43,193 nucleotides of DNA from an uncultured Actinomycetes bacterium (GTDB taxonomy: Bacteria > Actinomycetota > Thermoleophilia > RBG-16-64-13): positions 1-43,193 of the forward strand of contig CAIQPS010000075.1 in assembly GCA_903873715.1 (NCBI GenBank). The letters run 5' to 3'. The position numbers were made by a program, and so were the translations under genes. The notes beneath the pieces are model-generated. The model was given only the letters and a program-made list of their open reading frames with translations, was not told where the DNA came from and searched no databases. Positions 16,803 to 38,372 of this stretch are shown here, one piece after another. The first letter of the stretch is position 1. Every line of letters begins with the position of its first letter.

Positions 16803-18356
16803 ATGGGCTTGAACATGACCGAAGTGGTCATAGACGGAGAATCGCTGACCATCGAACAGGTGGTCGCTGTGGCGCAGGACGGTGCGCGCGTCGTCTTGGC
16901 CGGATCGGCCGTGCCCAAGGTGCAACGGGCCCGAGCCTATGTCGAGCGGCTGCTGGCCGAGCAGCGGGTCGTCTACGGGGTCACGACCGGATTCGGCAAG
17001 TTCGCCGAAGTGCCCGTCGCCCGTGAAGACTCCCTCACCCTTCAGCGCAACCTGGTGCTCAGTCACTCCTGCGGGGTGGGCGAGCCCCTGGGCATACCGG
17101 AAGCCCGGGGCATGATGCTCCTGCGCGCCAACGTGATGGCGAAAGGCTTCTCAGGCGTGCGCCTCGTCGTCCTCGAGACCCTGCTTCGGGCGCTCAACCA
17201 AGGCGTGATACCGGTGATCCCCCGCAAGGGGTCCGTGGGCGCGTGCGGGGACCTGGCGCCGCTGGCGCATCTGACCGCGGTGCTCATCGGGGAAGGTGAG
17301 GCCTTCTACCAGGGCGAGCGGCTGCCAGGCGGAGAAGCCATGCGCCGTGCCGGCATCGAGCCGGTGATCCTGGAGGCCAAAGAGGGTCTGGCCCTCATCA
17401 ACGGTACCCAGATGATGACGGCTCTCGGAGCTCTCACCCTCTGGGAAGCGGAGAACCTCAGCAAGTCCGCCGACATCGCGGCTGCACAGGCCGTAGAGGC
17501 GCTGCGCGGCACCAACACTCCCTACCTTGAGATCAGTCACCGGGTGCGCCCGCATGTGGGGCAGGCGGCCACGGCGCGCAACCTCATGCGACTGCTGGAG
17601 CACAGCGAGATCCTCGCGTCGCACGTGACCTGTAGCAAGGTCCAGGACGCATATTCCCTGCGCTGCGTGCCCCAGGTCCACGGCGCCGTCAAGGATGCCC
17701 TCGCCTTCGTGCGCGGCGTCCTCGAGGTGGAGATCAACGCCGCCACCGACAACCCGCTCGTGTTCCCGGAGGAGGAGATGGTCATCTCCGGGGGCAACTT
17801 CCACGGGCAACCGGTGTCGCAGGCCATGGACATCCTGGCGATCGCCCTCGCCGAGATGGGCAACATCTCCGAGCGGCGCATCGAATGTACGATGGACCCG
17901 AGCACATCGGACCACCTCCCGCCGTTCCTCACCAGCCACCCCGGGCTCAACTGCGGGCTCATGATGGCGCAGGTGACCGCCGCGGCGCTGGTGTCCGAGA
18001 ACAAGATCCTCGCGCATCCGGCCTGCGTGGACAGCATCCCCACGTCGGCCAACAAGGAGGACTTCGTGAGCATGGGCGCCCACGCCGCCGTCAAGGCGCG
18101 CGAGGTGGTCCAGAACGTCCGCAGGGTGCTGGCAATCGAGTTGCTGTGCGGCGCACAGGGGCTCGAGTTCAGGGAACTCCTGCGTCCCGGCCGGGGTGTG
18201 GCCGCGGCGCATGCGTTCATACGGGAGTCCATCCCGGCTTTGGAACATGACCGTCCGCAGACCCCCGACATCGAGAAGGTAGCGGGGATGGTGCTGGACG
18301 GTTCGTTGGTCTCGCGCGTCGAGGACGCGGTGGGACGGTTGGAACCAAACGACTGA
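16803..18356 (+). CDS. hutH: histidine ammonia-lyase with an Ala-Cys-Gly MIO triad
   Basis: A 517-residue histidase, converting L-histidine to urocanate and ammonia, first step of the hut pathway. Motifs: VYGVTTGFGKFAEV (catalytic Tyr), GSVGACGDLAPLAH, INGTQMMTALGAL (Asn), YSLRCVPQVHG, TDNPLVFPEEEMVISGGNFHGQP, and the SANKEDFVSMG loop. The electrophilic MIO cofactor normally forms from Ala-Ser-Gly; here residues 147-149 are Ala-Cys-Gly, with codon TGC at 17244. A Ser-to-Cys change at this position is known to leave bacterial histidase able to form the cofactor, so activity is expected. A second ATG at 16815 is a possible start; the ribosome site is weak for both. Confidence 0.96.
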   Translation: MGLNMTEVVIDGESLTIEQVVAVAQDGARVVLAGSAVPKVQRARAYVERLLAEQRVVYGVTTGFGKFAEVPVAREDSLTLQRNLVLSHSCGVGEPLGIPEARGMMLLRANVMAKGFSGVRLVVLETLLRALNQGVIPVIPRKGSVGACGDLAPLAHLTAVLIGEGEAFYQGERLPGGEAMRRAGIEPVILEAKEGLALINGTQMMTALGALTLWEAENLSKSADIAAAQAVEALRGTNTPYLEISHRVRPHVGQAATARNLMRLLEHSEILASHVTCSKVQDAYSLRCVPQVHGAVKDALAFVRGVLEVEINAATDNPLVFPEEEMVISGGNFHGQPVSQAMDILAIALAEMGNISERRIECTMDPSTSDHLPPFLTSHPGLNCGLMMAQVTAAALVSENKILAHPACVDSIPTSANKEDFVSMGAHAAVKAREVVQNVRRVLAIELLCGAQGLEFRELLRPGRGVAAAHAFIRESIPALEHDRPQTPDIEKVAGMVLDGSLVSRVEDAVGRLEPND

Positions 18357-18381
18357 CGGATCGAGAGCGAGGGGAGTCCAC

Positions 18382-19692
18382 GTGGAGACATCTGCCACAC
18401 CCTGGATCGAGGCCGACCTCATCATCAAGGGCGCCTCTGAGGTGCTCACCTGCAAGGCCGACGGCCGCGACAACGAAGGCCGCCTGTCTGTCGGCAGGAT
18501 AAACGACGGGGCCGTTGCGTCCCGCGAAGGGCGCATCGTGTGGGTCGGCACCGAGAGCGCCTTGATGGAAGAGGTGCGGCTCATGCGCGGCGGCGAGATG
18601 CTGGACGCCGACGGCAGGGTGGTCATGCCCGGCCTGGTAGAGTGCCACAGCCATCTGGCCTGGGCCGGAGACCGCGCGGACGAGTTCCAGATGCGCGTCG
18701 CCGGCGCGACGTACCAGCAGGTGCAGGAGGCGGGCGGCGGGATCGCCAGCACGGTCGAATCCACCCGCAAGGCTCCTGACGAGGTGCTGCGCGCCCACGC
18801 GCGCAGGCGCCTGGACCGCTTCATGCGCTACGGGGTCACGACGGTCGAGGCCAAGAGCGGCTACGGCCTGTCCTTGGACCAGGAGATCCGGCTGCTCGAG
18901 GTCTACCGGGACGTCGCGCTGGCGCACCCGGTGGACGTGGTGCCGACTCTTCTGGGTGCCCACGTGGTCCCGGTGGAGTACACGGAGCGCGCCGACGATT
19001 ACGTCAAGCTCGTCTGCAAGAAGATGATCCCGCAGGCCGCCAAGAAGAAGCTCGCACGGTTCAACGACGCGTTCTGCGAGCGCGGGGCCTTCACCGTGGA
19101 GCAGTGCCGGCGGGTGCTTGAGGCCGGGCTCGAGGAGGGCCTGCTTCCCAAACTGCACGCCGACCAGCTCAGCTACATGGGCGGCACCGAGATGGCTTCC
19201 GAGTTGGGTGCCGTGTCGGTCGACCACCTCGACCACGCCGCGGATGCCGGCATCGCCGCGCTGACCTCGGTCGCCGGCGGCAAGCGGGCCCCCATCGCGG
19301 TGCTCCTGCCCGGAGCCACGTTCTTCCTGGGCGAGGGGGGCTACGCTCCGGCCCGCAAGATGATCGACGCGGGGGTCCGGGTGGCCCTCAGCACCGACTT
19401 CAACCCCGGGTCCAGCCCCACCCAGAACCTCTGGCTCATGGCCACCATGGGCTGTTCTCAGCTGCGGATGACGGCCGAAGAGGTCATCAGAGCCATCACC
19501 ATCGAGGCGGCGGCCGCTCTGGCGCTGGACGACGAGGTCGGGAGCCTGGAGGTCGGCAAGAAGGCCGACATCCTCATCCTGGACTATTCGCGTGGCGCCC
19601 AGATCCCGTACCGCTACGGGATGAACCCCGTCTGGCGGGTGTACAAGGACGGCAAGCGCGTGGTGAAACGCGACAACCCGGGCGAGGGATGA
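18382..19692 (+). CDS. hutI: imidazolonepropionase
   Basis: A 436-residue amidohydrolase-fold enzyme opening imidazolone-5-propionate to N-formimino-L-glutamate, third step of histidine breakdown. Metal and catalytic marks: ECHSHLAWAGDR with His89 and His91, TTVEAKSGYGLSLDQE, LHADQLSYMGG, SVDHLDHA, and ALSTDFNPGSSPTQNLWLMA with the metal Asp. The GTG start is preceded by GGGGAG. Gap to hutH is 25 bases. The length and motifs are usual for the family. Confidence 0.95.
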   Translation: METSATPWIEADLIIKGASEVLTCKADGRDNEGRLSVGRINDGAVASREGRIVWVGTESALMEEVRLMRGGEMLDADGRVVMPGLVECHSHLAWAGDRADEFQMRVAGATYQQVQEAGGGIASTVESTRKAPDEVLRAHARRRLDRFMRYGVTTVEAKSGYGLSLDQEIRLLEVYRDVALAHPVDVVPTLLGAHVVPVEYTERADDYVKLVCKKMIPQAAKKKLARFNDAFCERGAFTVEQCRRVLEAGLEEGLLPKLHADQLSYMGGTEMASELGAVSVDHLDHAADAGIAALTSVAGGKRAPIAVLLPGATFFLGEGGYAPARKMIDAGVRVALSTDFNPGSSPTQNLWLMATMGCSQLRMTAEEVIRAITIEAAAALALDDEVGSLEVGKKADILILDYSRGAQIPYRYGMNPVWRVYKDGKRVVKRDNPGEG

Positions 19693-19726
19693 TCGGCGCC
19701 GGCGACCGGCGGGATGTGAGGCTGAT

Positions 19727-20620
19727 ATGAAGCTCGTCGAGTGTGTCCCGAACGTCAGCGAGGGGCGGGATGCGGCCAAGCTCGAGCGGATCGTGGCGGC
19801 GGTCAAGGAGACCTCCGGTGTGGAACTGCTCGATTGGAGCGCCGATGCCGACCACAACCGCGCCGTCCTGACCTACGTCGGCGAACCGGACGCCGTGCTC
19901 GAGGCCACCAAGGCCATGTGCCGGGTGTGCTTCGAGGTCATCGACATGCGGACGCACCAGGGGGCCCACCCGCGCATGGGCGCGGTGGACGTCATCCCGT
20001 TCGTGCCGCTGCGCGGAGTGAGCACCGAAGAGGCGGTCGACCTGGCGCGGAAGCTGGGTGCGTGGATAGGGGAGCAGGGCGTCCCCGTGTACTACTACCA
20101 GGACGCGGCCACCCGCCCGGAGCGGCAGATGCTGCCCGACGTGCGCAGGGGCGAGTACGAGGGGCTGGCCGCCAAACTGGCCACGCCCGAAGGCGCGCCC
20201 GATGCCGGCGCCGCCGTGTTCAACGAGCGCTCGGGCGCTTCCATCGTTGGGGTGCGCTTCCCGCTCATAGCGTTCAACGTCAACCTGGGCACCGCCGACC
20301 TGTCCATCGCCAAGCGGATCGCCGAGGCGGTGCGGAACTCGAGCGGAGGCTATCGCTACGTACGGGCTATGGGCGTGGCCCTGGAGGACAAGGGGCAGGT
20401 GCAGGTGTCCACCGACCTGCTGCAGTACGAGAAGACCCCCGTGCACCGGGTCTTGGAGACCGTGCGCTCCGAGGCGGCCCGGTACGGTGTGCCGGTGGTG
20501 GGGTGCGAGCTGATCGGCCTGGCGCCGATGGACGCTTTCGCCGAAGCCATCCGCTATTACATGCAGATCCACGACTTCTCCTCCAGCCAGATCGTCGAGA
20601 GCCGGCTGCTGGAGGTCTGA
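19727..20620 (+). CDS. ftcD: glutamate formimidoyltransferase
   Basis: A 297-residue enzyme moving the formimino group from formiminoglutamate to tetrahydrofolate, releasing glutamate. It matches the formiminotransferase half of bifunctional FTCD: MKLVECVPNVSEGRD at the N-terminus, SADADHNRAVLTYVG, THQGAHPRMGAVDVIPFVP with His81 equivalent to the catalytic His of the mammalian enzyme, and GVRFPLIAFNVNLGT. The cyclodeaminase half is absent and no fchA-like gene is seen in the window, so that step must be encoded elsewhere. The presence of this enzyme instead of HutG or HutF defines the folate-dependent branch of the pathway. Confidence 0.95.
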   Translation: MKLVECVPNVSEGRDAAKLERIVAAVKETSGVELLDWSADADHNRAVLTYVGEPDAVLEATKAMCRVCFEVIDMRTHQGAHPRMGAVDVIPFVPLRGVSTEEAVDLARKLGAWIGEQGVPVYYYQDAATRPERQMLPDVRRGEYEGLAAKLATPEGAPDAGAAVFNERSGASIVGVRFPLIAFNVNLGTADLSIAKRIAEAVRNSSGGYRYVRAMGVALEDKGQVQVSTDLLQYEKTPVHRVLETVRSEAARYGVPVVGCELIGLAPMDAFAEAIRYYMQIHDFSSSQIVESRLLEV

Positions 20621-22681
20621 GTGGCGCCCCAGACGTTCGGTCTTCCCGAGGAGTTGCCGGCGCCGCCGGTCTTCACCGCCGGCATCCGCCGGGCTCCCGA
20701 CCGCGGCTACACGCTGTCGCCGCGGCAGACTGCGGTGGCCCTGAAGAACGCCCTGCGCTACGTGCCGCCCGCGCTGCACGCCGAGGTGGCGCCGGAGTTC
20801 CTGGCGGAACTCAGGGAGCGGGGGCGCATCTACGGGTACCGGTTCCGTCCTCGGCCGGGTGAGCGGGACGCGAACGGGGCGCTGCTTGCCGACGCTGAGG
20901 GCAACATCAAGGCCCGCCCCATCGACGACTATCAGGGCATCCTCGAGGCCCGGGCGCTGCAGTTGAACATAGACAACAACCTGGACTTCGCTGTCGCCCT
21001 CTATCCGTACGAGCTGGTGACCTATGGCGAGACCGGCCAAGTGTTCCAGAACTGGATGCAGTACCGCCTGATCAAGCACTACCTGGAGCGGATGACCGAG
21101 ACCCAGACCCTGGTGGTGGCGTCCGGGCACCCGGTGGGGCTGTTCCCCAGCCACCGCGACGCTCCCCGGGTCATCAACACCAACGGCCTCATGGTGGGCG
21201 AGTTCGACAACCCCGCCGACTTCCACGAGGCCGCGCAGATGGGCGTGGCCAACTACGGACAGATGACCGCCGGCGGCTGGATGTACATAGGGCCGCAGGG
21301 GATCGTGCACGGCACCTATCTGACCTTGCTGAATGCGGGGCGGCTGTATCTGGGGCGGAGGTCCGACGAGGACCTGGCCGGCGTCCTGTATCTGAGTTCT
21401 GGGCTAGGGGGCATGAGCGGCGCCCAGCCGAAGGCGGCCGACATCGCGGGCGCGGTGAGTATCACGGCGGAGGTAGACCTTTCGCGCATCGAGACGCGGC
21501 ACAGCCAGGGCTGGGTGGAGCGGGTCACCTCCGATCTCGGAGAGGCCTTCTCCTGGGCGGCGGCTGCGCGCGCCGCCACCACGCCCCTGTCGATCGCCTA
21601 CCACGGCAACATAGTCGATGTCTGGCAGTACGTCGTGGACCACGATATCCAGGTCGAGCTGGCCTCCGACCAGACCTCCTGCCACGCCGCCTACGAAGGC
21701 GGCTACGTGCCCCAGGGCCTCGACTTCGAGGCGTCGCGGACGCTCATGGTGAGCGACCCCGCCGAGTTCCGCCGGCGCGTGGACGAGTCGCTCCGCAGGC
21801 AGATCGAGTTGATCGGGGTGATGGCCGGGCGAGGCACTCACTTCTGGGACTACGGCAACAGCTTCCTCAAGGCGGTCTTCGAGGCGGGCGTCCACGAGGT
21901 GGCGTCCAACGGCGCCGACACCAAGGAGGGCTTCGTCTACCCCTCGTACGTAGAGCACATCATGGGTCCGCTCTGCTTCGACAAGGGCTACGGCCCGTTC
22001 CGCTGGGTCTGCACCAGCCTCGACCCGGCGGACCTGGCCCGCACCGACGCCATGGCCATGACCTGCATCGACCCAGACCGCTGCTGGCAGGACCGCGACA
22101 ACCACAACTGGGTGCGGGACGCCGCAAAGAACAAGCTGGTGGTGGGCTCGCAGGCCCGCATCCTCTACTCGGACGCAGAGGGGCGCGTGCGCATCGCCCT
22201 GGCTTTCAACGAGATGGTGAGGCGTGGAGAGATCGGCCCCGTGATCATCGGGCGCGACCACCACGACGTGTCCGGCACCGACTCGCCGTATCGGGAGACG
22301 AGCAACATCTACGACGGCTCCAACGTCATGGCCGACATGGCCTTCCACTGTTGGGGCGGCAACGCCGCCCGGGGGATGACCCTGGTGGTGGCGTCGAACG
22401 GCGGGGGGGTCGGCATCGGCAGGTCCATCAACACCGGGTTCGGACTGGTGCTGGACGGCTCCGAGCGGGTGGACGGCATCATCCGGTCCGCGGTCGACTG
22501 GGACGTGATGGGCGGTGTGGCCAGGCGGGCCTGGGCGCGTAACGAGCCGGCCATCGAGACCGCGGCGGCCTGGAACGAGCGGCAGGCTGCGGGAGCGCTC
22601 GACCAGCCGGGCGGCGCCGCTCGCATCACGCTCCCGCACCTCGTGGACGACGGGTTGCTGGATGGCCTTCTCGGGGTATGA
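20621..22681 (+). CDS. hutU: urocanate hydratase (long form)
   Basis: A 686-residue urocanase, adding water to urocanate to give imidazolone propionate with tightly bound NAD+ as electrophile. Seen: FQNWMQYRLIKHYLE, LVVASGHPVGLFPSH, NYGQMTAGGWMYIGPQGIVHGT, the nucleotide loop SSGLGGMSGAQPKA, GPLCFDKGYGPFRW, and RDHHDVSGTDSPYRET ... VASNGGGVGIGRSINTG. It is longer than the roughly 555-residue Pseudomonas and Bacillus enzymes and closer in size to the vertebrate-type form. The order hutH-hutI-ftcD-hutU places it last of the four enzymes. The GTG start follows the ftcD stop directly, with GGAGG inside the end of ftcD. Confidence 0.95.
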   Translation: MAPQTFGLPEELPAPPVFTAGIRRAPDRGYTLSPRQTAVALKNALRYVPPALHAEVAPEFLAELRERGRIYGYRFRPRPGERDANGALLADAEGNIKARPIDDYQGILEARALQLNIDNNLDFAVALYPYELVTYGETGQVFQNWMQYRLIKHYLERMTETQTLVVASGHPVGLFPSHRDAPRVINTNGLMVGEFDNPADFHEAAQMGVANYGQMTAGGWMYIGPQGIVHGTYLTLLNAGRLYLGRRSDEDLAGVLYLSSGLGGMSGAQPKAADIAGAVSITAEVDLSRIETRHSQGWVERVTSDLGEAFSWAAAARAATTPLSIAYHGNIVDVWQYVVDHDIQVELASDQTSCHAAYEGGYVPQGLDFEASRTLMVSDPAEFRRRVDESLRRQIELIGVMAGRGTHFWDYGNSFLKAVFEAGVHEVASNGADTKEGFVYPSYVEHIMGPLCFDKGYGPFRWVCTSLDPADLARTDAMAMTCIDPDRCWQDRDNHNWVRDAAKNKLVVGSQARILYSDAEGRVRIALAFNEMVRRGEIGPVIIGRDHHDVSGTDSPYRETSNIYDGSNVMADMAFHCWGGNAARGMTLVVASNGGGVGIGRSINTGFGLVLDGSERVDGIIRSAVDWDVMGGVARRAWARNEPAIETAAAWNERQAAGALDQPGGAARITLPHLVDDGLLDGLLGV

Positions 22682-24007: not shown

Positions 24008-24025
24008 AGTGAGCGACCGCTCACT
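24008..24025. promoter_or_regulatory. 18-bp palindromic operator, TetR-family-like
   Basis: AGTGAGCG (24008-24015), AC, then CGCTCACT (24018-24025): a perfect 8+8 dyad. Its 18-bp size and AGTGAGCG half-sites resemble operators of TetR-family repressors. It ends five bases upstream of the -35 box of the transhydroxylase promoter. No TetR gene lies in the window. Confidence 0.65.
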
Positions 24026-24030
24026 CCCTC

Positions 24031-24059
24031 TAGACATCGCCTCCGTTCTTCGCCATAGT
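24031..24059 (+). promoter_or_regulatory. promoter of the transhydroxylase operon
   Basis: TAGACA (24031-24036), a 17-base spacer and CATAGT (24054-24059), giving a leader of about 85 bases before the ATG at 24150. Confidence 0.6.
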
Positions 24060-24149
24060 GGGTGACGGTCGCCTCACGCTTGCCGGGGGCGGCCCTGCCG
24101 CGCGGGTCCGAACGCGCGGACCCAGCAAACACGCCGAAGGGGGCAGAGC

Positions 24150-26774
24150 ATGGAGCCACTCATCACCAGACCGCCGAACGCAGCGGGGGAGAAGACGCTG
24201 GTGCGGGATATCAGCTGGTGTGGGGTGCACAACGGCGCCAATGCCTGCATGGTGGATGTGAAGGACGGCAAGATCGTCCGTATACGGCCCGCCCGTTACT
24301 ACGACCAGTACACCAGGGAGGAAGTCAAGCCCTGGGTGATGCACGCGCGCGGCAAGTCCTTCGAGCCCAGCGACAAGAGCCTGGCGCCGCCGCTCAGCCT
24401 GGCCTACAAGAAGCGGGTGTTCTCGCCCGGCCGGGTGCGCTACCCCATGAAGCGCGTGGACTTCGATCCCAAGGGCGCTCCGGGATCCACCGGGCCCGGA
24501 GGGCGCAACGCGCAGAACCGGGGTGTGAGCAAGTACGAGCGCATCTCCTGGGATGCAGCCCTCGACATCGTCGCGGCCGAGATGCTGCGCATCAAGGAGA
24601 CCTACGGGCCTACCGCAATCCTCAACCAGTCCGACCAGCACGGTGAGAACAAGTGCGTGCACGGCCCGCACGGCTGCATGCGCAAGCTGCTCCGGCTGTT
24701 CGGCGGGTACACCCTGCAGGTCCGCGACGCCGACAGCTGGGAAGGCTGGTGGTGGGGCTCCAAACACGTGTGGGGCTGCGAGCCGGTGGGCCAGCAGATG
24801 CCGCAGAAGAACCTCATCTACGACATCTCCAAGAACGCCGAGCTCATCCTGCACTGGGGCTGCGACCTGGAGACCACCGTGTGGGGCTGGGAAGGCCAGT
24901 TGCCGAGCCGGCTGAGTTACTGGTGGACGGAACTGGGCATCAAGCAGATCTTCATCGCCCCGGACGTCAACTACGCCAACGCCGTCCACGCCGACAAGTG
25001 GATCCCCATCCTGCCGAACACCGACGCGGCGCTGTATCTGGCGATCGCGCACCACTGGATGGAGAACGGCACCTACGACAAGGACTACATCGCCACTCAC
25101 GCCTACGGGTTCGACAAGTTCGAGGACTACGTCATGGGACGGGAGGACGGCGAGGCCAAGACGGCAGACTGGGCGGCGCCCATCTGCGGTGTACCGGCCC
25201 GCATCATCCGGGCGCTGGCCAAGGAATGGGCGTCCAAGCGCACCACAATCGTGATCGGCAACGGCGGTCCGGGCATCCGCGGCCCCTATGCCACCGAGCC
25301 GGCCCGTCTGCAGGTGCTCTGCCTGGCCATGCAGGGCCTGGGCAAGCCGGGCTGCAACCAGGCCAAGATGATCGAATGGGGGCTCCTCGACGACTACGAG
25401 CAGGAATCCCCGCCGGCGCCGTCCATCATCCCCAACCTGCACGACGCCTACACGGGCGGTACGCCGATGGACACCAACCACCCGTCGTTCATCCCCAAGA
25501 GCCTGGTACCTAAGGCGCTCTTGGAGAAGGACATCGACTGGTACGGCAACGAGCACGAGATGGCGCGGCGTGAGGACCAGTTCATCCACTACGTGTACCC
25601 GGCCGAGGGTTGCTCCCGCATCCATATGATCTGGACCGATTCGCCGTCCTGGATCACGTGCTGGAACGCGGGTAACGACTACGCCAAGGCCGTCCGTCAG
25701 GACGACATCGAGTTCATGCTGGCCCAGCATCCGTGGCTGGAGAACGACTGCCTGTTCGCCGACGTCATCCTCCCGATCAACACCATGCTCGAAGAGGACG
25801 ACATCGGCAGCGACCTCTTCAGCGGGCAGATGAACCTGCTGTTCCCGGAGGAGCGCTGCGTGGAGCCCCTGGGCGAGTCGGTCAGCGACTACGAGGCCGT
25901 CTGCATGATCGCGGAGCGGCTGGGGCTGCTGGAGGAGTACACGGGCGGCCGGACCATCGAGGACCTCATCAAGATAGGCTATGAGAACTCTCGCGTGGCC
26001 GACAAGATCAGCTGGGAGGACCTGCGCCGCAAGGGCTACTGGGTCGTGCCGCCCATGGAGGGTTGGGAGGACATCCCCGCCGGCCTCATCGAGTTCTACG
26101 AGGACCCGGAAGGCCACCCGCTCTCCACACCCACCGGCAAGATCGAGTTCTTCGCCACCGGGCTGGCCGAGCACTTCCCCGACGACGAGGAGCGGCCGCC
26201 GGTGCCCAAGTGGATCCCCAAGGGCGTCACCCACGAGGAGACGCTGGGCACGGAGCGCAGCAAGAAGTATCCGCTGCTGGTGATGAGCAACCACCCGCGC
26301 TGGGGCGTCCACTCGCAGCACGACGACATCACTTGGTTCCGCGAGATCCCCACCTGCAAGGTCACAGCCCAGGACGGCTACCAGTACCAGCCGCTGTGGA
26401 TGAACGCCGCCGACGCCGCGGCCCGGGGCATCAAGAACGGCGACATCGTGAGCATCTACAACGACCGGGGCGTGGTGCTGGCGGGGGCGTACGTGACCGA
26501 GCGCATCATGCGCGGCACCATAGGTATCGACCACGGCGCCAAGTACGACCCCATCGAGGTGGGCGTCATCGACCGGGGCGGGGCCATCAACACCATCGTG
26601 CCTCGGGGGATCACGTCCAAGAATGCCTGCGGTCATGCGGTGAGCGGCTTCCTGGCCGAGGTCGAGAAGGCCGATATGGAAGCGCTCGAGGCGAAGTATC
26701 CCGACGCGTTCGCGAGAGAATGTCATATCACCGCCGGGCCGTGCCTGGCCGGATTCATGGAAGGTAGGGTCTGA
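24150..26774 (+). CDS. athL: molybdopterin oxidoreductase large subunit, pyrogallol-phloroglucinol transhydroxylase family
   Basis: An 874-residue molybdopterin (bis-guanine-dinucleotide) enzyme of the DMSO-reductase family, almost the same length as the 875-residue alpha subunit of Pelobacter acidigallici transhydroxylase. It has no N-terminal CxxC iron-sulfur motif and no Tat signal, as in that enzyme. DQHGENKCVHG carries His164 and RDADSWEGWWWG carries Asp195-Ser196; these match in spacing the active-site His144, Asp174 and molybdenum-ligand Ser175 of the Pelobacter protein. Also seen: LILHWGCDLETT, LFADVILPINTMLEED, SNHPRWGVHSQHDD, and an ALWMNAADAAARGI-like C-terminal cofactor-binding domain. 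Expected chemistry is hydroxyl transfer between polyhydroxybenzenes without external oxidant; the exact substrate is inferred. The small subunit follows two bases downstream. Confidence 0.88.
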   Translation: MEPLITRPPNAAGEKTLVRDISWCGVHNGANACMVDVKDGKIVRIRPARYYDQYTREEVKPWVMHARGKSFEPSDKSLAPPLSLAYKKRVFSPGRVRYPMKRVDFDPKGAPGSTGPGGRNAQNRGVSKYERISWDAALDIVAAEMLRIKETYGPTAILNQSDQHGENKCVHGPHGCMRKLLRLFGGYTLQVRDADSWEGWWWGSKHVWGCEPVGQQMPQKNLIYDISKNAELILHWGCDLETTVWGWEGQLPSRLSYWWTELGIKQIFIAPDVNYANAVHADKWIPILPNTDAALYLAIAHHWMENGTYDKDYIATHAYGFDKFEDYVMGREDGEAKTADWAAPICGVPARIIRALAKEWASKRTTIVIGNGGPGIRGPYATEPARLQVLCLAMQGLGKPGCNQAKMIEWGLLDDYEQESPPAPSIIPNLHDAYTGGTPMDTNHPSFIPKSLVPKALLEKDIDWYGNEHEMARREDQFIHYVYPAEGCSRIHMIWTDSPSWITCWNAGNDYAKAVRQDDIEFMLAQHPWLENDCLFADVILPINTMLEEDDIGSDLFSGQMNLLFPEERCVEPLGESVSDYEAVCMIAERLGLLEEYTGGRTIEDLIKIGYENSRVADKISWEDLRRKGYWVVPPMEGWEDIPAGLIEFYEDPEGHPLSTPTGKIEFFATGLAEHFPDDEERPPVPKWIPKGVTHEETLGTERSKKYPLLVMSNHPRWGVHSQHDDITWFREIPTCKVTAQDGYQYQPLWMNAADAAARGIKNGDIVSIYNDRGVVLAGAYVTERIMRGTIGIDHGAKYDPIEVGVIDRGGAINTIVPRGITSKNACGHAVSGFLAEVEKADMEALEAKYPDAFARECHITAGPCLAGFMEGRV

Positions 26775-26776
26775 GC

Positions 26777-27607
26777 ATGGGCAAAGTACTGATCATCGAT
26801 CTGGCCATCTGCAACGGCTGCCACAACTGCCAGATCGCCTGCAAGGACGAACACTGCGCCAACGATTGGTCGCCCATCGCCAAGCCCCAGCCCGACACCG
26901 GCCAGTTCTGGAACAAAGTGGTGGAGATGGAGCGCGGCTCCGTGCCCAAGGTGCAGGTGACCTACCACCACAGCATCTGCCAGCACTGTGAGGACGCGCC
27001 CTGCATGAAGGCCTGCAACGCCGGGGCCATCTACCGCCGCGCCGACGGCATCGTCATCATCGACCCGAACAAGTGCAAGGGCAACCAGCTCTGCCTGGAA
27101 GCCTGCCCCTACGAGAACGTCATCTACTTCAACGACGATCTCAACATCGCCCAGAAGTGCACCTTCTGCGCCCATCTCATCGACCGGGGCTGGACCGAGA
27201 CCCGCTGCTCCGACGCCTGCCCCACCGGGGCCTTCACCTTCGGGGACGACACCGACCCGGCCATCAAGGCCAAAGTCGCGGCCGCGTCGCTGCTCAAGCC
27301 CGGACTGGCCACCCGTCCCCGGGTCTACTACATGAACCTGCCCAAGAAGTGGGTCGCCGGCGCGGTCTACGACCCGCAGGCGGACGAGTGCCTGGAAGGG
27401 GCCACGGTCACCGCCACCAACACGGCCACCGGGGCGAAGGTGACCGTGAGCACCGACAACTACGGCGACTTCTGGCTCAAGGGCCTGGAGGACGGCTCGT
27501 ACACCCTGCTCATCGAGAAGGCGGGCTACCTGGCCAAGAAGCTCGGCCCGGTGGACGCCACCGCCGCCGACCAGAACGTCGGGGACGTGGAACTCTGGAA
27601 GGCCTAG
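26777..27607 (+). CDS. athS: iron-sulfur small subunit of the transhydroxylase, with C-terminal beta-sandwich domain
   Basis: A 276-residue electron-transfer subunit, close to the 274 or so residues of the Pelobacter beta subunit. Cys groups: C12-C15-C18-C22, C68-C71-C76-C80, C100...C106-C110 and C128-C131-C144-C148. The third group reads CKGNQLCLEACP, where the usual second Cys is Asn103, so one of four possible clusters should be lost; three [4Fe-4S] clusters are known for transhydroxylase. Residues about 195-276 form a carboxypeptidase-regulatory/transthyretin-like sandwich (GAVYDPQADECLEGATVTATN ... GDFWLKGLEDGSYTLLIEKAGY), the extra domain that sets this family apart from ordinary DMSO-reductase beta subunits. 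No membrane anchor or Tat signal, so the complex is cytoplasmic. Confidence 0.9.
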   Translation: MGKVLIIDLAICNGCHNCQIACKDEHCANDWSPIAKPQPDTGQFWNKVVEMERGSVPKVQVTYHHSICQHCEDAPCMKACNAGAIYRRADGIVIIDPNKCKGNQLCLEACPYENVIYFNDDLNIAQKCTFCAHLIDRGWTETRCSDACPTGAFTFGDDTDPAIKAKVAAASLLKPGLATRPRVYYMNLPKKWVAGAVYDPQADECLEGATVTATNTATGAKVTVSTDNYGDFWLKGLEDGSYTLLIEKAGYLAKKLGPVDATAADQNVGDVELWKA

Positions 27608-27618
27608 GCAGAACACCT

Positions 27619-27665
27619 GGGACAGGCGCTCACGCCGGGCGCTGCCCGGCGTGAGCGCCTGTCCC
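27619..27665. terminator. perfect 22-bp inverted repeat with 3-base loop
   Basis: The left arm (27619-27640, beginning GGGACAGGCGCTCACG) and right arm (27644-27665, ending GCGCCTGTCCC) are exact reverse complements around the loop GCT. It sits 11 bases after the small-subunit stop and ends eight bases before the MFS start codon. There is no T tract on either strand. Likely a terminator or RNA-stabilising hairpin for the transhydroxylase transcript; it would also mask the ribosome site of the next gene. Confidence 0.7.
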
Positions 27666-27673
27666 GACGCCGC

Positions 27674-29416
27674 ATGACCGGCCCGCGTCCCAGCGCCGCC
27701 GAGGCCGCTAGGAGTGACGGTGAGGCGCGCCAGAAGAGGCTGGGGCGCAAGGGGCTCATCGCCTTCCTGACCTTCCTCAGCGCGTTCGTCCCTCTGTCCA
27801 CGGACCTGTATCTGCCTGCTCTGCCCGGCATGACCCGGTATTTCGGCGTGCCCGAGTATCAGACCAACCTGACGCTCATCCTGTTCTTCGTCTTCTACGC
27901 AGTGGCCACGCTGCTGTGGGGGCCGCTCAGCGACCGGTACGGCCGCAGACCCATCCTGATCGTGGGCCTGGCCCTCTACACGGTGGCCGGTGGTCTCTGC
28001 GCCATCTCCACGGACATCGTCCAGCTCATCGTCTTCCGCGTGATCCAGGCCGTCGGGGCGGGAGCGGCCACGGCCGTCTCGACCGCCATCATCAAGGACG
28101 TCTACGTCGGCCGCCTGCGGGAGACGAGGCTGGCCCTCGTGCAGTCGATGACGGTGATATCGCCGGCTGTGGCTCCGGTGCTCGGGGCGTTGCTTCTGAA
28201 CGTCACGTCCTGGCGCGGTGTGTTCGTGGCCCAGGGGGTCCTCGGTCTGGGGGTGACCGTGGCGGCACTGGCCTACGTCGAGACTCTGGAGGCTCGTACC
28301 CAAGGCAACTTCCTGGCCGCCATCGCCCGGTTGGGGACGGTGTTGGCCAACGCGGCCTTCGCGCGCCTGCTTTTGGTGTCGGCCTTGCTCGGAATAGCAG
28401 GCATGGCCTTCATCACGTCCTCCTCCTACATCTACGAGGAGACGTTCGGGGTCGGCAGCCAGACCTACAGCCTGTTCTTCGCTCTGTGGGCGGTCGGCAT
28501 GTCTCTCGGCCCGCTCATCTACGTGTGGCTGTCCCGCTCCTGGAAGCGCACGTCCATCATCCCGGGCTGTTACGCGGCCTGTGCGGTGGCCGGGGTGCTC
28601 ATGGCCCTCGTGGGTGGCTATGGTCCCTGGCCGTTCATCCTCACGGCGATGATCTCCGGGATCGCGATGGCGGTACTGCGCCCGCCGATGACCTACCTGC
28701 TCCTCGACCAGCGGCGAGGGCGAGAAGCCCCTCGGGCTGCTCACGATGTCCAAGGAAGTGGTCCCGCTCAAGGTGATCATGGTCAACGTGCCGGCCACCC
28801 CCACCGACGACTTCATGGGCCGGGGCACCTCCTTCGAAGAGAAGACCATCCTGCGTTGGGTCACCGCCATCCGGTATCCGGACGGCGTCGACGTCGAGGA
28901 AGCCGACGATTGGTACGTAAACGTGCACGCCAAGGAAGTGATGCAGCAGCCGGGTCTCACCCGCTTCTTCAGCTACCGGGTCATCAAGCCGCCGGAGGTG
29001 ATGGCCAAGGTGGTGCCGGCCTTCATGCATCCGGAGTCGCGGGTCTCTTCGAACTGGCACCGCATCAGCGAGCAGTGGTACGAGAACGCGAACGGCTGGG
29101 TGGATTCGATCCTCACGAACCCGCCGGCCTACACCAGACCGTCCTGGGCGACCGCGGCGGGTTACCCGTTCCTGGCGCCGGAGACGAACTTCGCGAGCAC
29201 GTTCATCCTCGAGCGGCCCAGCGACGACTGGCTCAAAGAGGTGCCGCGCTTCTACGTGTAGAGCGGGGCGTGGCGCGGCGGGGCTCCAAGCCCGGCGCCA
29301 CAGGCCAGCAACGGCACCGCCACCCGCGGGTGCCGCGCAAACGCTGGGACCGATGCCGGACATGTACGGGTGCACCGGGTGCATCCATACAAACGGCACG
29401 GAGGTCCGGAGTATGA
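27674..29416 (+). CDS. Bcr/CflA-type MFS drug/metabolite transporter, disrupted after TM10 with an out-of-frame tail
   Basis: The first 346 codons (27674-28711) encode a Bcr/CflA-like major facilitator: KGLIAFLTFLSAFVPLSTDLYLPAL as TM1, the GPLSDRYGRRPIL loop after TM2, VFRVIQAVGAGAATAVSTAI as TM4, and helices continuing to AMAVLRPPMTYLLLDQ (TM10). TM11 and TM12 are missing. After Gln346 the frame stays open to 29416, but the tail (RRGREAPRAAHDVQGSG...) is Arg/Gly/His-rich and non-homologous, being an off-frame reading of the EthD-like gene at 28746. No frame contains the missing helices. A deletion fusing two genes, or an assembly join, is likely; the protein is probably not functional. The ATG has no Shine-Dalgarno sequence and follows the 22-bp hairpin. 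Confidence 0.6.
   Translation: MTGPRPSAAEAARSDGEARQKRLGRKGLIAFLTFLSAFVPLSTDLYLPALPGMTRYFGVPEYQTNLTLILFFVFYAVATLLWGPLSDRYGRRPILIVGLALYTVAGGLCAISTDIVQLIVFRVIQAVGAGAATAVSTAIIKDVYVGRLRETRLALVQSMTVISPAVAPVLGALLLNVTSWRGVFVAQGVLGLGVTVAALAYVETLEARTQGNFLAAIARLGTVLANAAFARLLLVSALLGIAGMAFITSSSYIYEETFGVGSQTYSLFFALWAVGMSLGPLIYVWLSRSWKRTSIIPGCYAACAVAGVLMALVGGYGPWPFILTAMISGIAMAVLRPPMTYLLLDQRRGREAPRAAHDVQGSGPAQGDHGQRAGHPHRRLHGPGHLLRREDHPALGHRHPVSGRRRRRGSRRLVRKRARQGSDAAAGSHPLLQLPGHQAAGGDGQGGAGLHASGVAGLFELAPHQRAVVRERERLGGFDPHEPAGLHQTVLGDRGGLPVPGAGDELREHVHPRAAQRRLAQRGAALLRVERGVARRGSKPGATGQQRHRHPRVPRKRWDRCRTCTGAPGASIQTARRSGV
28746..29261 (+). CDS. EthD-like (dimeric alpha-beta barrel) protein, function unknown
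   Basis: A 171-residue protein whose first half has the ferredoxin-like pattern of EthD-type domains: LKVIMVNVPATPTDDF, then EEADDWYVNVHAKEVMQQPGLTRFFSYRVI, in which the WYVNVH...PGL.R segment is the usual core. The second half has SNWHRISEQWYENANGWVDSI and ASTFILERPSDDWLKEVPRFYV. EthD-like proteins are small accessory or catalytic proteins in aromatic and ether degradation. There is no ribosome site at the ATG, and protein-like sequence continues upstream in frame (GEKPLGLLT) to the break in the MFS gene, so the true 5' end may be lost. Context suggests a role with the transhydroxylase, by inference only. Confidence 0.65.
   Translation: MSKEVVPLKVIMVNVPATPTDDFMGRGTSFEEKTILRWVTAIRYPDGVDVEEADDWYVNVHAKEVMQQPGLTRFFSYRVIKPPEVMAKVVPAFMHPESRVSSNWHRISEQWYENANGWVDSILTNPPAYTRPSWATAAGYPFLAPETNFASTFILERPSDDWLKEVPRFYV
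29271..29299 (+). terminator. stem-loop after the EthD-like gene
   Basis: GTGGCGC and GCGCCAC arms enclose an inner GGGCT-CCA-AGCCC stem, about ten bases past the stop. There is no T tract. Position is approximate. Confidence 0.4.
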
Positions 29417-33852: not shown

Positions 33853-35244
33853 CTAGCTGCGGGCGATCTTCTTGCGCCGTTTGTATGTCTTGGCCAGCTC
33901 GAGGAAGATGCCCACGTCCCGGTCGAGGTCGCTGGCGGTCCCGTCGAAGTAGAACACCCTTATCGGGATGTTGTCGTGTTCGCGGCTCACCCGCGGGTAG
34001 ATGGCCTCGGTGACGATGCCGTTCATGCAGGTGAACGGGCTGATGTCGACGATCCCGTCGGCGCCCTGGTGGTAGAGGTAGATGGCCCCGCCCGTGGACA
34101 GCACCATCTCCCCGAGCGAGCCCTCGCGCGGGAGATAGGGGCGGCTGTACTCGAGTACCTCGTGGACGTGCGCCTCGCGGTGGTGGGCGAAGACGTCGTG
34201 GAAGTCCTCGCCGAGGGCCTCCTCGTCCTTCTCCATCACGCGGGCGGTGAGGAAGTTCTTGAGCCAGTCCTTGCTCATCCGGCGCTTCTCTTCGCGGAGC
34301 CGGCGGAAGGCCTCGTCGTTGGTGTACCAAACCCACTCGGCCACGCCCGCCAGCCAACATTCGCCGCCCTGGGCCTCGATGTGCCGGATGATCTCGTTGT
34401 TGGCGAACGTGTTGAGGCGGCAGTAGATCTCGCCGACCACACCGATGAGCGGCCGGTCTTCCTTCTTGACCGGGATGGCCGCGAACTTGTCCTTGCAGCG
34501 CAGCAGGCCGGCCTTGGCATCGGCGAGCCGTTCCTTGTTGGTGACGCCCTGGCGCTCGATGACCGCCGCCATCACCTCGAGACATTCCATGTAGACCCGG
34601 TCGGTCTCGCCCGCGTTCACCTCGTAGGGCCGGGTCATGAGCAGCAGCTTCAGCAGGATGTCCTGGATGACCACCGCCCGCCACGCCGTGCGGATGAGCG
34701 ACCCCGCCTGTTCCCCGATGCCGGCATAGCCGTCGGCGGAGGTGATGGGCAGCACTATCGCATCCTTCAACCCCTGCTCGTCGAGGACCTGGCGCAGCAG
34801 TCCGAAGTACTGGCCGAAGCGGCAGGGGCCGTTGGCGGTGGGGAGGAGGAAGGCGGTCTTCTTGGGATCGAGGTTCTCGTCCTCGATGAGGCGCAGGTAG
34901 TCTCCTATCACGATGCGCTGCGGGTAGCACTCATCGCCGGACGTGTACTTGCCGCCCAACTCCAGGACGCGGGCGTCCTCGGAGGGGACCACGCGGGCAT
35001 CCAGGCCGATAGACCGGAACGCAGCGGCCAACATGAAGGAGCCACCGAAGGGCATGTGGGTGAGCCACAGGGTGCGGCCCTTGATGTCCACGTCCTCGCG
35101 GACCGGGCTCTTGTCGGCACCGTGAGCCGTCTGCGCCTTGGGCATGCCTTTGAGAGCCTCTCGAGCTGCCTGGGTGCTGCCCTTGCCGTTGCCGTTCTGG
35201 GTGGCGGTGCCGGTGCCGGTCTGTTCGAAGTCTTCCGCGCTCAT
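33853..35244 (-). CDS. 2-hydroxyacyl-CoA dehydratase / double-cubane-type iron-sulfur protein, partner of the double activase
   Basis: A 463-residue protein belonging to the HgdB/BcrC-like group that receives electrons from an ATP-driven activase. ATG 35244 shares its first base with the last base of the preceding stop (TGATG), so the pair is tightly coupled. After a Gly/Thr/Gln-rich N-terminal tail of about 50 residues it shows KYTSGDECYPQRIVIGDYL (Cys106), LPTANGPCRFGQYFGLLRQ (Cys141), VGEIYCRLNTFANNEII, and DISPFTCMNGIVTEAIYPR near the C-terminus; these cysteines are plausible iron-sulfur ligands. Related large two-part proteins are usually annotated as acyl-CoA dehydratase activase-related; double-cubane cluster proteins are another possible relative. 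The substrate is unknown. Confidence 0.78.
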   Translation of the reverse strand: MSAEDFEQTGTGTATQNGNGKGSTQAAREALKGMPKAQTAHGADKSPVREDVDIKGRTLWLTHMPFGGSFMLAAAFRSIGLDARVVPSEDARVLELGGKYTSGDECYPQRIVIGDYLRLIEDENLDPKKTAFLLPTANGPCRFGQYFGLLRQVLDEQGLKDAIVLPITSADGYAGIGEQAGSLIRTAWRAVVIQDILLKLLLMTRPYEVNAGETDRVYMECLEVMAAVIERQGVTNKERLADAKAGLLRCKDKFAAIPVKKEDRPLIGVVGEIYCRLNTFANNEIIRHIEAQGGECWLAGVAEWVWYTNDEAFRRLREEKRRMSKDWLKNFLTARVMEKDEEALGEDFHDVFAHHREAHVHEVLEYSRPYLPREGSLGEMVLSTGGAIYLYHQGADGIVDISPFTCMNGIVTEAIYPRVSREHDNIPIRVFYFDGTASDLDRDVGIFLELAKTYKRRKKIARS

Positions 35245-38200
35245 CAATGCTCCCTGACCGGTTGCCCGGACTTCGTCTTGTCCTCGCGCATCCACCAGCG
35301 CAGGAAGCCCTTGCTGTCGAGGTAGGCCTCGCAGCGGGTCATCGCGCCGGCGTCGTTGGTGTGCTCGTCGAACTGGAGCACCAGGAACGGCTCGGGCGAG
35401 GCGTCGCGGATGAAGTGCTTGACGTACGAGTCGGGCCCGCACTTGAAGTTGGTCATGTAGATGATGTGCAGGTTGGGGTGCTCGGACACGATGCGAGCCG
35501 CCTGCAGGATCTTGCGTCCGTAGTTCCAGAACATGTTGGGGGTGACGTCCCGGGTGTCCGTGCCCCAGAGGGGCAGGAAGTCGAGCGGGATGACGTTGAC
35601 CCCGTAGAACCGGCGCAGCTTGGCCGGGATGTCCATGTTCACGCCGGCGTCGTAGATGTTGTACGGCCGACCCACCAGGACGATGCCCAGTTCGTCTTGC
35701 TCGGCCAGGGCGGCGATGGCGTCGGCTCCAGCCTTGACGAGCCGGGCCCGGAACTCGCTCTGCGCGTCGTACGCTTCGCGGACCGCCTGGTCCACGACCT
35801 TACCGGACACGCCCAGAGGCTTGAGGGCCTCACGCAGCGTCTCGCGCACGTATTCCGGCCCGCGGCGGAAGTGGATGATGGGATGGAGGAACTTGTCCTC
35901 GAGGCCCTCGAACTCCGGCGCCATCTTGATGACGTGCGGCAGCGTCTGGCCCCACGGGCAGGCGTGCGACTCCAGCTCAGGATGGTCAGTCTCCTCGTTG
36001 AGCTGGTTGGGGATGAAGATCTTGTCCACCCCGGCTTCGAGCAGTTCGGTCACGTGGCCGTGGGCCACCCGGATGGGGAAGCAGGGCTCGGCCACGGCCG
36101 AGTCGATGCCCCATTCCCGGATCTTCTTGTCGGTCTGCCGGGAGACGGCCACGTCGAAGCCACACGCCTTGAAGAGCGTCGCCCAGAAGGGCAGGCGGTC
36201 GTAGGTGTACATCGCCCGCGGGATGCCGATGGTGCCCAGCGGAGCGCCCGTGCCGCTGCGCAGCAGCGTCTCGTAGTCCTCGCTCTGCGTCACGTACGAG
36301 AAGCACAGGGCGTTGCGGAACTCCACCAGGTCGCGGATGACGGGCTCTTTGTCCACCTTGGCGCGCTTGCGGTACCGGTCGGAGCACTTGTCGCCCCAGT
36401 AGGTCTTCTCGTCGCCGATGGTGAACTGGCGGATGTCGCACTCGTTGGTGCAGCCCTTGCAGACGAACTCGCGCACCGTGTAGTCCACCTGGTCGAGGTC
36501 CCAGCCGCGGAAGCGGGAGGGCGAGTCGGTGGCCGACATCTTCTCGCGGGCCAGCAGGGCCGCGCCGATGGCGCCGACCACACCGTTGTACGGGGGCACG
36601 ATGATGTCCTTGCCCAGGATCTGACTGAAGGCGGCGGCCACCGCGTCGTTGTAGGCGGTGCCGCCCTGGAAATAGATGGTGTCGCCCACATGGCGCTGCC
36701 CCACCAGACGGTTCAGGTAGTTGAACGCGATGGAGTAGGCCAGACCCGCCACCAGCGCCTTCTTGTCGGCGCCGCGCTGCAGGTAGGAGTTGACATCGCG
36801 CTCCATGAACACCGTGCAGCGCTCGCCCAGGCGCACCGGGTCGTCGGACGACAGCGCCAGTTCGGCGAACTCGCCGATGATGCTGATGCCCAACTTCTCC
36901 GCCTGCTCCTCCAGGAAGGAGCCGGTGCCCGCCGCGCAGGCCTCGTTCATGGCGAAGTCCACCACCACGCCGTCTTCCAGGCTGATGAACTTGGAGTCCT
37001 GTCCGCCGATCTCGAAGATGGTGTCCGGCACCCGGTCGATGTACTTCTTACCGATGAACGTGGCACCCGTCTTGTGGGCGGTGATCTCGTCGTTGACGGC
37101 GTCCGCGCCGATCAGCTCGCCGATGAGTTCTCGGCCGGAGCCGGTGGTGGCGACGCCGAGGATCTCGAGGCGGTCGCCCATCTCGTTGTAGATCTCGGCC
37201 AGGCCGCGGTTGACGACCTCCACCGGCCGTCCCTCGGTCTTGACGTAGATCTCCTTGACCATCTCGCCGTCCTCGTCGAGGAGGACCAGGTTGGTGGACA
37301 CCGAGCCGATGTCGATGCCCAAGTAGACGCCGACCTTGCCTTCGGCCGGCCAGGTGTACGGCTTGGCCCGGTCGCGCAGCAGGATGACGTGCTCCATGGA
37401 GAGCGCATCGCTCGTCTGGAAGTCGGAGGAGAGACCCTGGGCCAGCTTGGCCGGGTCGATGGTGACCATCTCCAGGCCGGAGGCTTCGTCGGCGGCGGTG
37501 AGGGCGCTTCCGATGGCGCCCATCCAGGCGTAGTAGCCCGGGATGATGAGGCGGTCGGCGGTGGTCTCGAAGGCTTCGCGCAAGGCCGCGACGGCGCCCG
37601 TGTTGGCCGCCACGCCACCGATGAAGGCCACGAGCGAGCCGATCTCCTTGCCCTTGGTGATGGTGCTGCGGTAGTTGCGGACCACGGCGTTGCAGAGGCC
37701 CTTCAGTACCTCGGGGGGCTGGTAGCCCTTCTGCTGGGCGTGGATCATGTCCGATTTGGCGAACACGGAGCAGCGGCCCGCGATGGAAGCGGCCTTGCCT
37801 GCGCACTGCACGATGCCGCCCACGTCTTCGATGTCGTAGAGGAGACGGTTGGCCTGCTGGTCCATGAAAGAGCCGGTGCCGGCCGCGCAGTCGCCGTTGG
37901 TGCCGTAATCGGCTATGCCGACCCGGCCGGAAGCCTGGTCGGTCTCCAGTTCGATGAACTTGGAGGTCTCGCCGCCCATCTCGAAGACGGTGGTGACGTC
38001 GGGATGCATCGCCCCGATGGCGCGGGCGATGGCCTTGAACTCGTTCTCGAACGGGATCTCGAGGACCTTGGCTACGAGCCTGCCGCCCGTGCCGGTGGCC
38101 CGGACGGCGGTGATGGACCCCTCCGGCAGGGCCGCCAGGACCTGAGCCAGGAGCTCGCTCGCGGCTTCGGTGGGGCTGCCCTTGATGCGCCGGTAGGCGG

Positions 38201-38372
38201 TCGCGAGGACCGGGGGCGCGTCCGGGGCGGGCGGGACCATGCCTTCGCCTCGAGGAGAGTAGAAGAGCTCCGATGACTCTCGGAGACTATCGAACGAATC
38301 GCGATCTTCGGGCTCGCCGACGACCGCGATCTTCACACTGATGCACCCGATATCGATGCCGAGCGTAGCCAT
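35244..38372 (-). CDS. double acyl-CoA dehydratase activase fused to a DUF2229-type domain
   Basis: A 1042-residue fusion. Two ASKHA ATPase activase units occur in tandem: unit 1 (1-300) with GIDIGCISVKIAVV, MGGETSKFI, Cys162 in DCAAGTGSF and Cys201 in GRCSVF; unit 2 (350-610) with GIDIGSVSTNLVLLD, IGGQDSKFI, Cys479 in EACAAGTGSF and Cys519 in GERCTVF. In HgdC-type activases the two Cys of each monomer hold one [4Fe-4S] cluster across the dimer, so one chain here can form the dimer by itself. A four-Cys segment follows (C638, C641, C645, C663), then a DUF2229-like domain (about 700-1042) with AEPCFPIRVAHGHV, SHACPWGQTLP and NFKCGPDSY. ATP-driven low-potential electron transfer to the adjacent 463-residue protein is the expected role. 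GGAGG lies 11 bases before the ATG. Confidence 0.85.
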   Translation of the reverse strand: MATLGIDIGCISVKIAVVGEPEDRDSFDSLRESSELFYSPRGEGMVPPAPDAPPVLATAYRRIKGSPTEAASELLAQVLAALPEGSITAVRATGTGGRLVAKVLEIPFENEFKAIARAIGAMHPDVTTVFEMGGETSKFIELETDQASGRVGIADYGTNGDCAAGTGSFMDQQANRLLYDIEDVGGIVQCAGKAASIAGRCSVFAKSDMIHAQQKGYQPPEVLKGLCNAVVRNYRSTITKGKEIGSLVAFIGGVAANTGAVAALREAFETTADRLIIPGYYAWMGAIGSALTAADEASGLEMVTIDPAKLAQGLSSDFQTSDALSMEHVILLRDRAKPYTWPAEGKVGVYLGIDIGSVSTNLVLLDEDGEMVKEIYVKTEGRPVEVVNRGLAEIYNEMGDRLEILGVATTGSGRELIGELIGADAVNDEITAHKTGATFIGKKYIDRVPDTIFEIGGQDSKFISLEDGVVVDFAMNEACAAGTGSFLEEQAEKLGISIIGEFAELALSSDDPVRLGERCTVFMERDVNSYLQRGADKKALVAGLAYSIAFNYLNRLVGQRHVGDTIYFQGGTAYNDAVAAAFSQILGKDIIVPPYNGVVGAIGAALLAREKMSATDSPSRFRGWDLDQVDYTVREFVCKGCTNECDIRQFTIGDEKTYWGDKCSDRYRKRAKVDKEPVIRDLVEFRNALCFSYVTQSEDYETLLRSGTGAPLGTIGIPRAMYTYDRLPFWATLFKACGFDVAVSRQTDKKIREWGIDSAVAEPCFPIRVAHGHVTELLEAGVDKIFIPNQLNEETDHPELESHACPWGQTLPHVIKMAPEFEGLEDKFLHPIIHFRRGPEYVRETLREALKPLGVSGKVVDQAVREAYDAQSEFRARLVKAGADAIAALAEQDELGIVLVGRPYNIYDAGVNMDIPAKLRRFYGVNVIPLDFLPLWGTDTRDVTPNMFWNYGRKILQAARIVSEHPNLHIIYMTNFKCGPDSYVKHFIRDASPEPFLVLQFDEHTNDAGAMTRCEAYLDSKGFLRWWMREDKTKSGQPVREH

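Follow-up and report, generated by a model that had tools for sequence, protein, structure and literature searches.

The pyrogallol–phloroglucinol transhydroxylase (TH) of Pelobacter acidigallici (AthLS/PgtL, structure 4v4c) is the best solved relative of a pair of molybdoenzyme genes on contig CAIQPS010000075.1 (43,193 nt, hereafter the window), which belongs to the 3.33-Mb, 97% complete genome of an uncultured actinobacterium of anaerobic sediment. Wells et al. 2023 (PMC10100899) place the resorcinol hydroxylase RhLS of Azoarcus anaerobius in one group with PgtL, and surveys count all genes of this kind as 'transhydroxylase', for example pgthAB (PMC12203004) or two TH operons from Chloroflexi (PMC3971608). 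The degradation of phloroglucinol in Clostridium scatologenes (PMC10470551) relies on a gene set that recurs elsewhere in the host genome.

We consider, with a probability of about 0.5, that the window pair is an uncharacterised, probably electron-exchanging hydroxylase or dehydroxylase of polyhydroxybenzenes. It belongs to a clade of the RhL/PgtL family (clade A) that is sister to the true transhydroxylases (clade B). An earlier sequence-only reading had matched the pair to the transhydroxylase; the family placement stands but not the assignment to a Pelobacter-type enzyme, since the pair falls into a sister clade with 100% support and its small subunit keeps a terminal iron–sulfur site.

Family placement and active site of the large subunit

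That the large subunit (L) belongs to the RhL/PgtL family in the broad sense is secure from sequence comparison. Its best solved relative is chain A of 4v4c (E 1e-135, 34% identity), and Pfam detects molybdopterin domains together with the AhtL-like first domain PF21423, above cut-off. An AlphaFold2 model of L (predicted local distance difference test score, pLDDT, 78; predicted template modelling score 0.84) retrieves 4v4c at the top of a fold search (template modelling score, TM, 0.83, E 1.7e-75), followed by MtsZ and dimethyl sulfoxide (DMSO) reductases. The likeness to the Pelobacter enzyme extends to the subunit sizes, the architecture of both subunits and the catalytic residues. H164, D195 and S196 of L align with His144, Asp174 and Ser175, as had been proposed, and do not vary across an alignment of 30 sequences; W197 aligns with Trp176, and the His/Asp/Ser/Trp set is kept in both clades. 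By its description, RhLS likewise belongs to the Ser-coordinating RhL/PgtL family and hydroxylates a phenol with net release of electrons, as we propose for the window pair.

The next-best solved relatives of L are DMSO and trimethylamine N-oxide (TMAO) reductases, which could mean that an oxide reductase of this type has been wrongly assigned to the transhydroxylase family. This is scarcely credible in view of the lead of TH (457 vs 264 bits), the PF21423 match, a partner subunit with a β-sandwich and the phenol-pathway context of the relatives. Against the NCBIfam models of DMSO/TMAO reductases, L stays below the cut-offs of bisC_fam (332 bits against 1018), TorA and DmsA, and its sequence has no twin-arginine signal. 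Gut catechol dehydroxylases (Dadh, Hcdh, Cadh) and acetylene hydratase share with the window pair the bis-molybdopterin guanine dinucleotide (bis-MGD) fold, an expansion in anaerobic Actinomycetota and a likely phenol chemistry, but they form another MopB branch with weak similarity in sequence and fold: acetylene hydratase (2e7z) matches L with E 7.6e-13, against 1e-135 for TH, and with a TM of only 0.58. The comparison with relatives proposed in the sequence-only reading thus yields a transhydroxylase-type protein, not a member of the catechol dehydroxylase or acetylene hydratase branch.

In a maximum-likelihood tree of 63 sequences (LG+F+R5, ultrafast bootstrap), clade A with the window and clade B with Pelobacter and proteobacterial plasmid sequences each receive 100% support, and by sequence the window pair lies in the former, not in Pelobacter-type clade B. 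Clade A contains two sister groups with 100% support each, A1 (window; motif HGPHG) and the broader A2 (mostly motif QACHGA). Plasmid relatives from Salipiger and Burkholderia stagnalis were considered as RhL or clade-A proteins and rejected; they belong to clade B and have even fewer Fe-S ligands. The active-site surroundings differ between the clades. Tyr152, Arg153, Tyr404, Phe468 and Cys557 (Pelobacter numbering), which we take to form the TH substrate pocket in the 2004 structure, correspond in L to G, P, a gap, H and S. Across clade A, Tyr152 is mostly G/A and Arg153 mostly P/C/S, nothing corresponds to Tyr404 and Tyr560, and other residues stand in place of Phe468 and Cys557. The earlier guess that another polyhydroxylated aromatic is the substrate is in line with these comparisons.

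Iron–sulfur ligands of the small subunit

The best solved relative of the small subunit (S) is chain B of 4v4c (E 6e-54), and Pfam identifies dicluster ferredoxin domains followed by the C-terminal CarboxypepD_reg β-sandwich (PF13620, residues 193-272) that the sequence-only reading had recognised and that is also found in Pelobacter. The three-cluster ferredoxin it had described fits the Pelobacter protein, whereas S of the window has 15 of the 16 cysteine ligands of a four-cluster pattern. Motifs I (C12/15/18/22), II (C68/71/76/80) and IV (C128/131/144/148) are complete, while motif III reads C100-x-x-N103-x-x-C106-x3-C110, giving a fourth site of the form CxGNxxC. At the position of N103, the aligned NarH has Trp (CxGWxxC) and the ethylbenzene dehydrogenase β subunit EbdB has His (CxGHxxC). 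In NarH and ethylbenzene dehydrogenase, the Fe-S chain ends in a [3Fe-4S] cluster at the corresponding site.

The ligands of this terminal site (FS4) are absent from all 26 clade-B small subunits analysed, while three or four of them are found in 38 of 46 clade-A small subunits. The loss in clade B fits transhydroxylase chemistry because that reaction requires no electron exit, and the retention of FS4 in A1 and A2 suggests a net exchange of electrons. FS4 has been lost in the other eight clade-A small subunits, mostly from Bacillota plus one Actinomycetota genome. The use of FS4 as a marker of all clade A was dropped once Bacillota members without it turned up. The Actinomycetota genome concerned (G799) is a single contig of 3.9 Mb in which the clade-A genes (L118, L119) adjoin other molybdopterin-enzyme genes.

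These losses bear on the possibility that clade A is also a transhydroxylase without net redox, which would use another substrate pair (e.g. hydroxyhydroquinone to tetrahydroxybenzene) in series with the clade-B enzyme and would merely have inherited FS4. The family and the catalytic His/Asp/Ser are the same as in TH, A2 genes adjoin clade-B TH at many loci, and the title of a study cited in PMC3971608 refers to sequential transhydroxylation of hydroxyhydroquinone in Pelobacter massiliensis. We hold this to be possible but on balance unlikely, as all sampled A1 and A2 small subunits retain FS4 and the N/H substitution is conserved, which does not look like decay.

Phloroglucinol clusters, gene copies and candidate operators

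The closest relatives of the host are Actinomycetota metagenome-assembled genomes, in agreement with its earlier description as a high-GC Gram-positive, and all near relatives named here are metagenome assemblies. A PF21423 search returned 17 matches in the host genome, all over the cut-off, and none in 14 control genomes; tblastn recovers the same L copies. Assigned by their score to the window versus their score to Pelobacter, six copies belong to clade A (C75, which is the window, C6:26216, C20, C53, C110:40628 and C79:12425) and 11 to clade B (C-numbers denote contigs of the host genome, L-numbers loci that come mainly from relatives). A2 is present in Actinomycetota, Chloroflexota, Desulfobacterota and Clostridia, including the cultured Parasporobacterium paucivorans. 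Few genomes carry clade A at a strict threshold: one further genome of about 395 Actinomycetota, four further ones of Desulfobacterota and six more from the phylum of P. paucivorans.

Contig C69 of the host carries, in this order, genes for BKACE, a 116-aa protein, a short-chain dehydrogenase/reductase (SDR), 3HCDH, a PF04199 cyclase, TH S and TH L. The latter, a clade-B gene truncated by the contig end, has 77% identity with its Pelobacter counterpart across 175 residues. The SDR (phloroglucinol reductase, PGR), cyclase (DPGCH), 3HCDH-type and BKACE-type genes form the same set as in the C. scatologenes cluster, and these genes except BKACE stand beside A2 in relatives. Unlike in C. scatologenes, they are joined here to a clade-B TH and in relatives also to A2, an IclR gene and an ABC importer. 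The sequence-only reading had argued from the absence of a phloroglucinol reductase gene. This absence is real for the window, but the argument fails for the organism because C69 of the same genome has a phloroglucinol-type cluster with TH. The C69 copy also makes it highly unlikely that the window pair is itself the pyrogallol–phloroglucinol transhydroxylase of the host. The Pelobacter enzyme is its best database relative and His/Asp/Ser are conserved, but the identity is only 34%, the clade is a separate one and the presumed pocket residues are not kept.

In relatives ranging from Actinomycetota to Bacillota, A2 lies beside a clade-B TH, often within a phloroglucinol ring-opening cluster. 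The order SDR, 3HCDH, cyclase, clade-B L and S, IclR, A2 L and A2 S is found at two loci (L049, L058), with a branched-chain-type ABC importer farther along past A2 S, and parts of this arrangement occur at three others (L046, L048, L056); the SDR in such A2-bearing clusters is PGR-like. The A2 copy on C20 of the host has a GGAATAG..CTATTCC-type site and IclR and flavin mononucleotide reductase neighbours, as in relatives. Orthologues of the window gene (77-80% identical) are tandem neighbours of A2 at L043 and L044. The closest orthologue of L (82-83% identity), in RBG_16_64_13, is followed by a benzoylformate-decarboxylase-like thiamine pyrophosphate enzyme, an SDR, a TetR regulator, an old yellow enzyme homologue and a VdcC-like UbiD, a family of non-oxidative hydroxyarylic acid decarboxylases. 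Matches to VdcC-like UbiD in the host genome are below the cut-off. P. paucivorans has one A2 copy, three clade-B copies and a ring-opening cluster. It had been considered as a host of clade A alone, which would have shown that clade A performs the TH step, and was rejected for its clade-B copies and ring-opening genes. In Chloroflexi RBG_13_51_36 (L053), one A and one B operon are adjacent; this is probably the genome (RBG-1351) whose pair of TH operons was described as equivalent (PMC3971608). Clade A thus accompanies the transhydroxylase pathway and does not replace it, because A2 sits with clade-B TH and ring-opening genes across relatives and in P. paucivorans.

Upstream of L, the palindrome AGTGAGCGACCGCTCACT, which had been noted as an operator, is indeed perfect. 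Nowhere else does the genome match AGTGAGCGNNCGCTCACT exactly; with up to two mismatches there are five sites, compared with one for the reversed control. A two-mismatch site, AGTGAGCTATCGCTCAGT (C6:28957), precedes the closest paralogue in clade A by about 30-36 bp. Another on C5, with the identical core GTGAGCGACCGCTCAC, lies about 77 bp before a gene for a molybdoenzyme of the xanthine-oxidase family, and a third, on C77, 31 bp before a TetR gene. The tighter AGTGAGCGCTCACT is found upstream of a clade-B copy on C6. Altogether, related TGAGC-based palindromes (C5:12047, C6:28957, C6:40437, C75:24008, C77:12749) precede the window gene, two more TH-family genes (one per clade), the xanthine-oxidase-family gene and the TetR gene, and three of the four exact GTGAGC-N0-4-GCTCAC sites in the genome precede molybdoenzyme genes. 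These matching sites lend further support to the candidate operator, and it is reasonable to infer a putative regulon of molybdenum enzymes under a TetR-family protein. As the 6-bp arms are separated by 0, 2 or 4 bases, we do not claim that one regulator serves all GTGAGC..GCTCAC sites. A different palindrome of the GGAATAGCTATTCC type (GGAATAG..CTATTCC) occurs just 5′ of L at nine A2 loci (L011, L043, L044, L046, L048, L049, L054, L056, L058), mostly adjoining an IclR gene, and is a candidate IclR-type operator of the phloroglucinol cluster.

The shared operator core, together with the 17-copy expansion, which resembles the dehydroxylase expansions of gut Eggerthellaceae, and an efflux-type transporter gene downstream of the pair could point to an enzyme that reductively dehydroxylates phenols, either to dispose of electrons or for detoxification, like the gut catechol dehydroxylases but in a different branch. 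Indeed, members of the xanthine-oxidase family can dehydroxylate phenols (PMC12771579). We regard this as rather improbable, given that beyond the superfamily L is unrelated to the catechol dehydroxylases and acetylene hydratase and that no membrane electron-transfer partner is seen near the pair.

Locus features and proposed function

The two genes are separated by 2 nt, and both open reading frames (ORFs) have the sizes given in the sequence-only reading (Table 1). The weak -35/-10-like pair starts 6 bp downstream of the palindrome. A 22-bp hairpin (folding of 27600-27680: -57.7 kcal/mol, z = -7.7) stands between the L/S pair and the gene of a Bcr/CflA-type transporter of the major facilitator superfamily (MFS). 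This gene may reflect a deletion, a frameshift or an assembly fault.

Table 1. Features of the window and their coordinates
Feature	Position	Strand	Remarks
Histidine-degradation-like cluster	16803-22681		upstream of L/S pair; aromatic amino acid lyase, amidohydrolase, formiminotransferase, urocanase; preceded by two amino-acid permeases
18-bp perfect gapped palindrome AGTGAGCGACCGCTCACT	24008-24025	.	TetR-type operator candidate, 5′ of L gene
Sigma-70-like promoter candidate TAGACA-17-CATAGT	24031-24059	+	consensus scan, 9/12 matches; 0.0 expected in shuffles
L (large, catalytic) subunit gene	24150-26774	+	874 aa; clade A1 of RhL/PgtL family; predicted bis-MGD, with Ser196 as predicted Mo ligand and His164 and Asp195 in active site
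S (small) subunit gene	26777-27607	+	276 aa; four-cluster Fe-S domain (FS4 site CCNC) and CarboxypepD_reg β-sandwich
Perfect inverted repeat, 22 bp, 3-nt loop	27619-27665	+	terminator/attenuator candidate 3′ of S gene, without T run
Bcr/CflA-type MFS gene	27674-29416		similarity stops near residue 340 (about 28690); frame continues without homology
171-aa ORF	28746-29261		no Pfam match; overlaps non-homologous stretch of MFS frame
BadF/BadG/BcrA/BcrD-type CoA-enzyme activase gene	35244-38372	-	1042 aa, with DUF2229; 1009-aa antisense ORF without Pfam matches opposite

Several points weigh against an electron-exchanging enzyme distinct from TH. A larger FastTree phylogeny retains the A/B split but gives the A node a local support of only 0.58, and the pLDDT of the L model drops below 50 at the cofactor loop 195-202, where the Mo geometry is not reliable. 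Given that FS4 is lost in 8/46 cases, net redox is not a property of clade A as a whole. Moreover, we infer net redox from FS4, a step that hinges on resorcinol hydroxylase as the characterised net-redox member of the family. We know of no clade-A protein with an assayed activity. Finally, the window locus has no aromatic-pathway neighbours, with histidine degradation upstream and a truncated efflux MFS downstream.

In the model that we favour, an electron-exchanging clade-A enzyme, the pair would form a cytoplasmic, Ser-ligated bis-MGD molybdoenzyme in which a polyhydroxybenzene would bind at Mo, His164 and Asp195 and gain or lose a ring hydroxyl as in a half-reaction of the transhydroxylase. 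Because S retains the terminal cluster FS4, the Fe-S chain could then carry electrons to or from a separate partner, and they would not be handed to a second phenol at the same Mo. In net terms, a polyhydroxybenzene distinct from pyrogallol would be hydroxylated or dehydroxylated, and the reaction would either supply the phloroglucinol pathway encoded elsewhere in the genome or draw from it. The window copy (A1) is a lineage-specific duplicate, which may have arisen from the cluster-linked copy (A2) and then come under a TetR-type operator.

Since related copies adjoin phenol-ring-opening genes in several phyla, clade A probably represents a second step, not yet characterised, in the anaerobic microbial breakdown of plant polyphenols, a process that governs carbon loss from peat and sediment and polyphenol metabolism in guts. 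At least two clades are thus covered by the label 'transhydroxylase', unlike in their active-site surroundings and Fe-S wiring. Much more tentatively, clade A might be a net-redox Mo phenol hydroxylase that either provides TH with its co-substrate, 1,2,3,5-tetrahydroxybenzene, or converts hydroxyhydroquinone-type phenols for the phloroglucinol pathway. With the cluster-linked clade-A genes of culturable hosts such as P. paucivorans, and with FS4, the entry of the TH co-substrate or of phenols other than pyrogallol becomes directly testable. If clade A had this hydroxylase role, it would fill a gap in the anaerobic breakdown of polyphenols with an enzyme common to Actinomycetota, Chloroflexota, Desulfobacterota and Bacillota.

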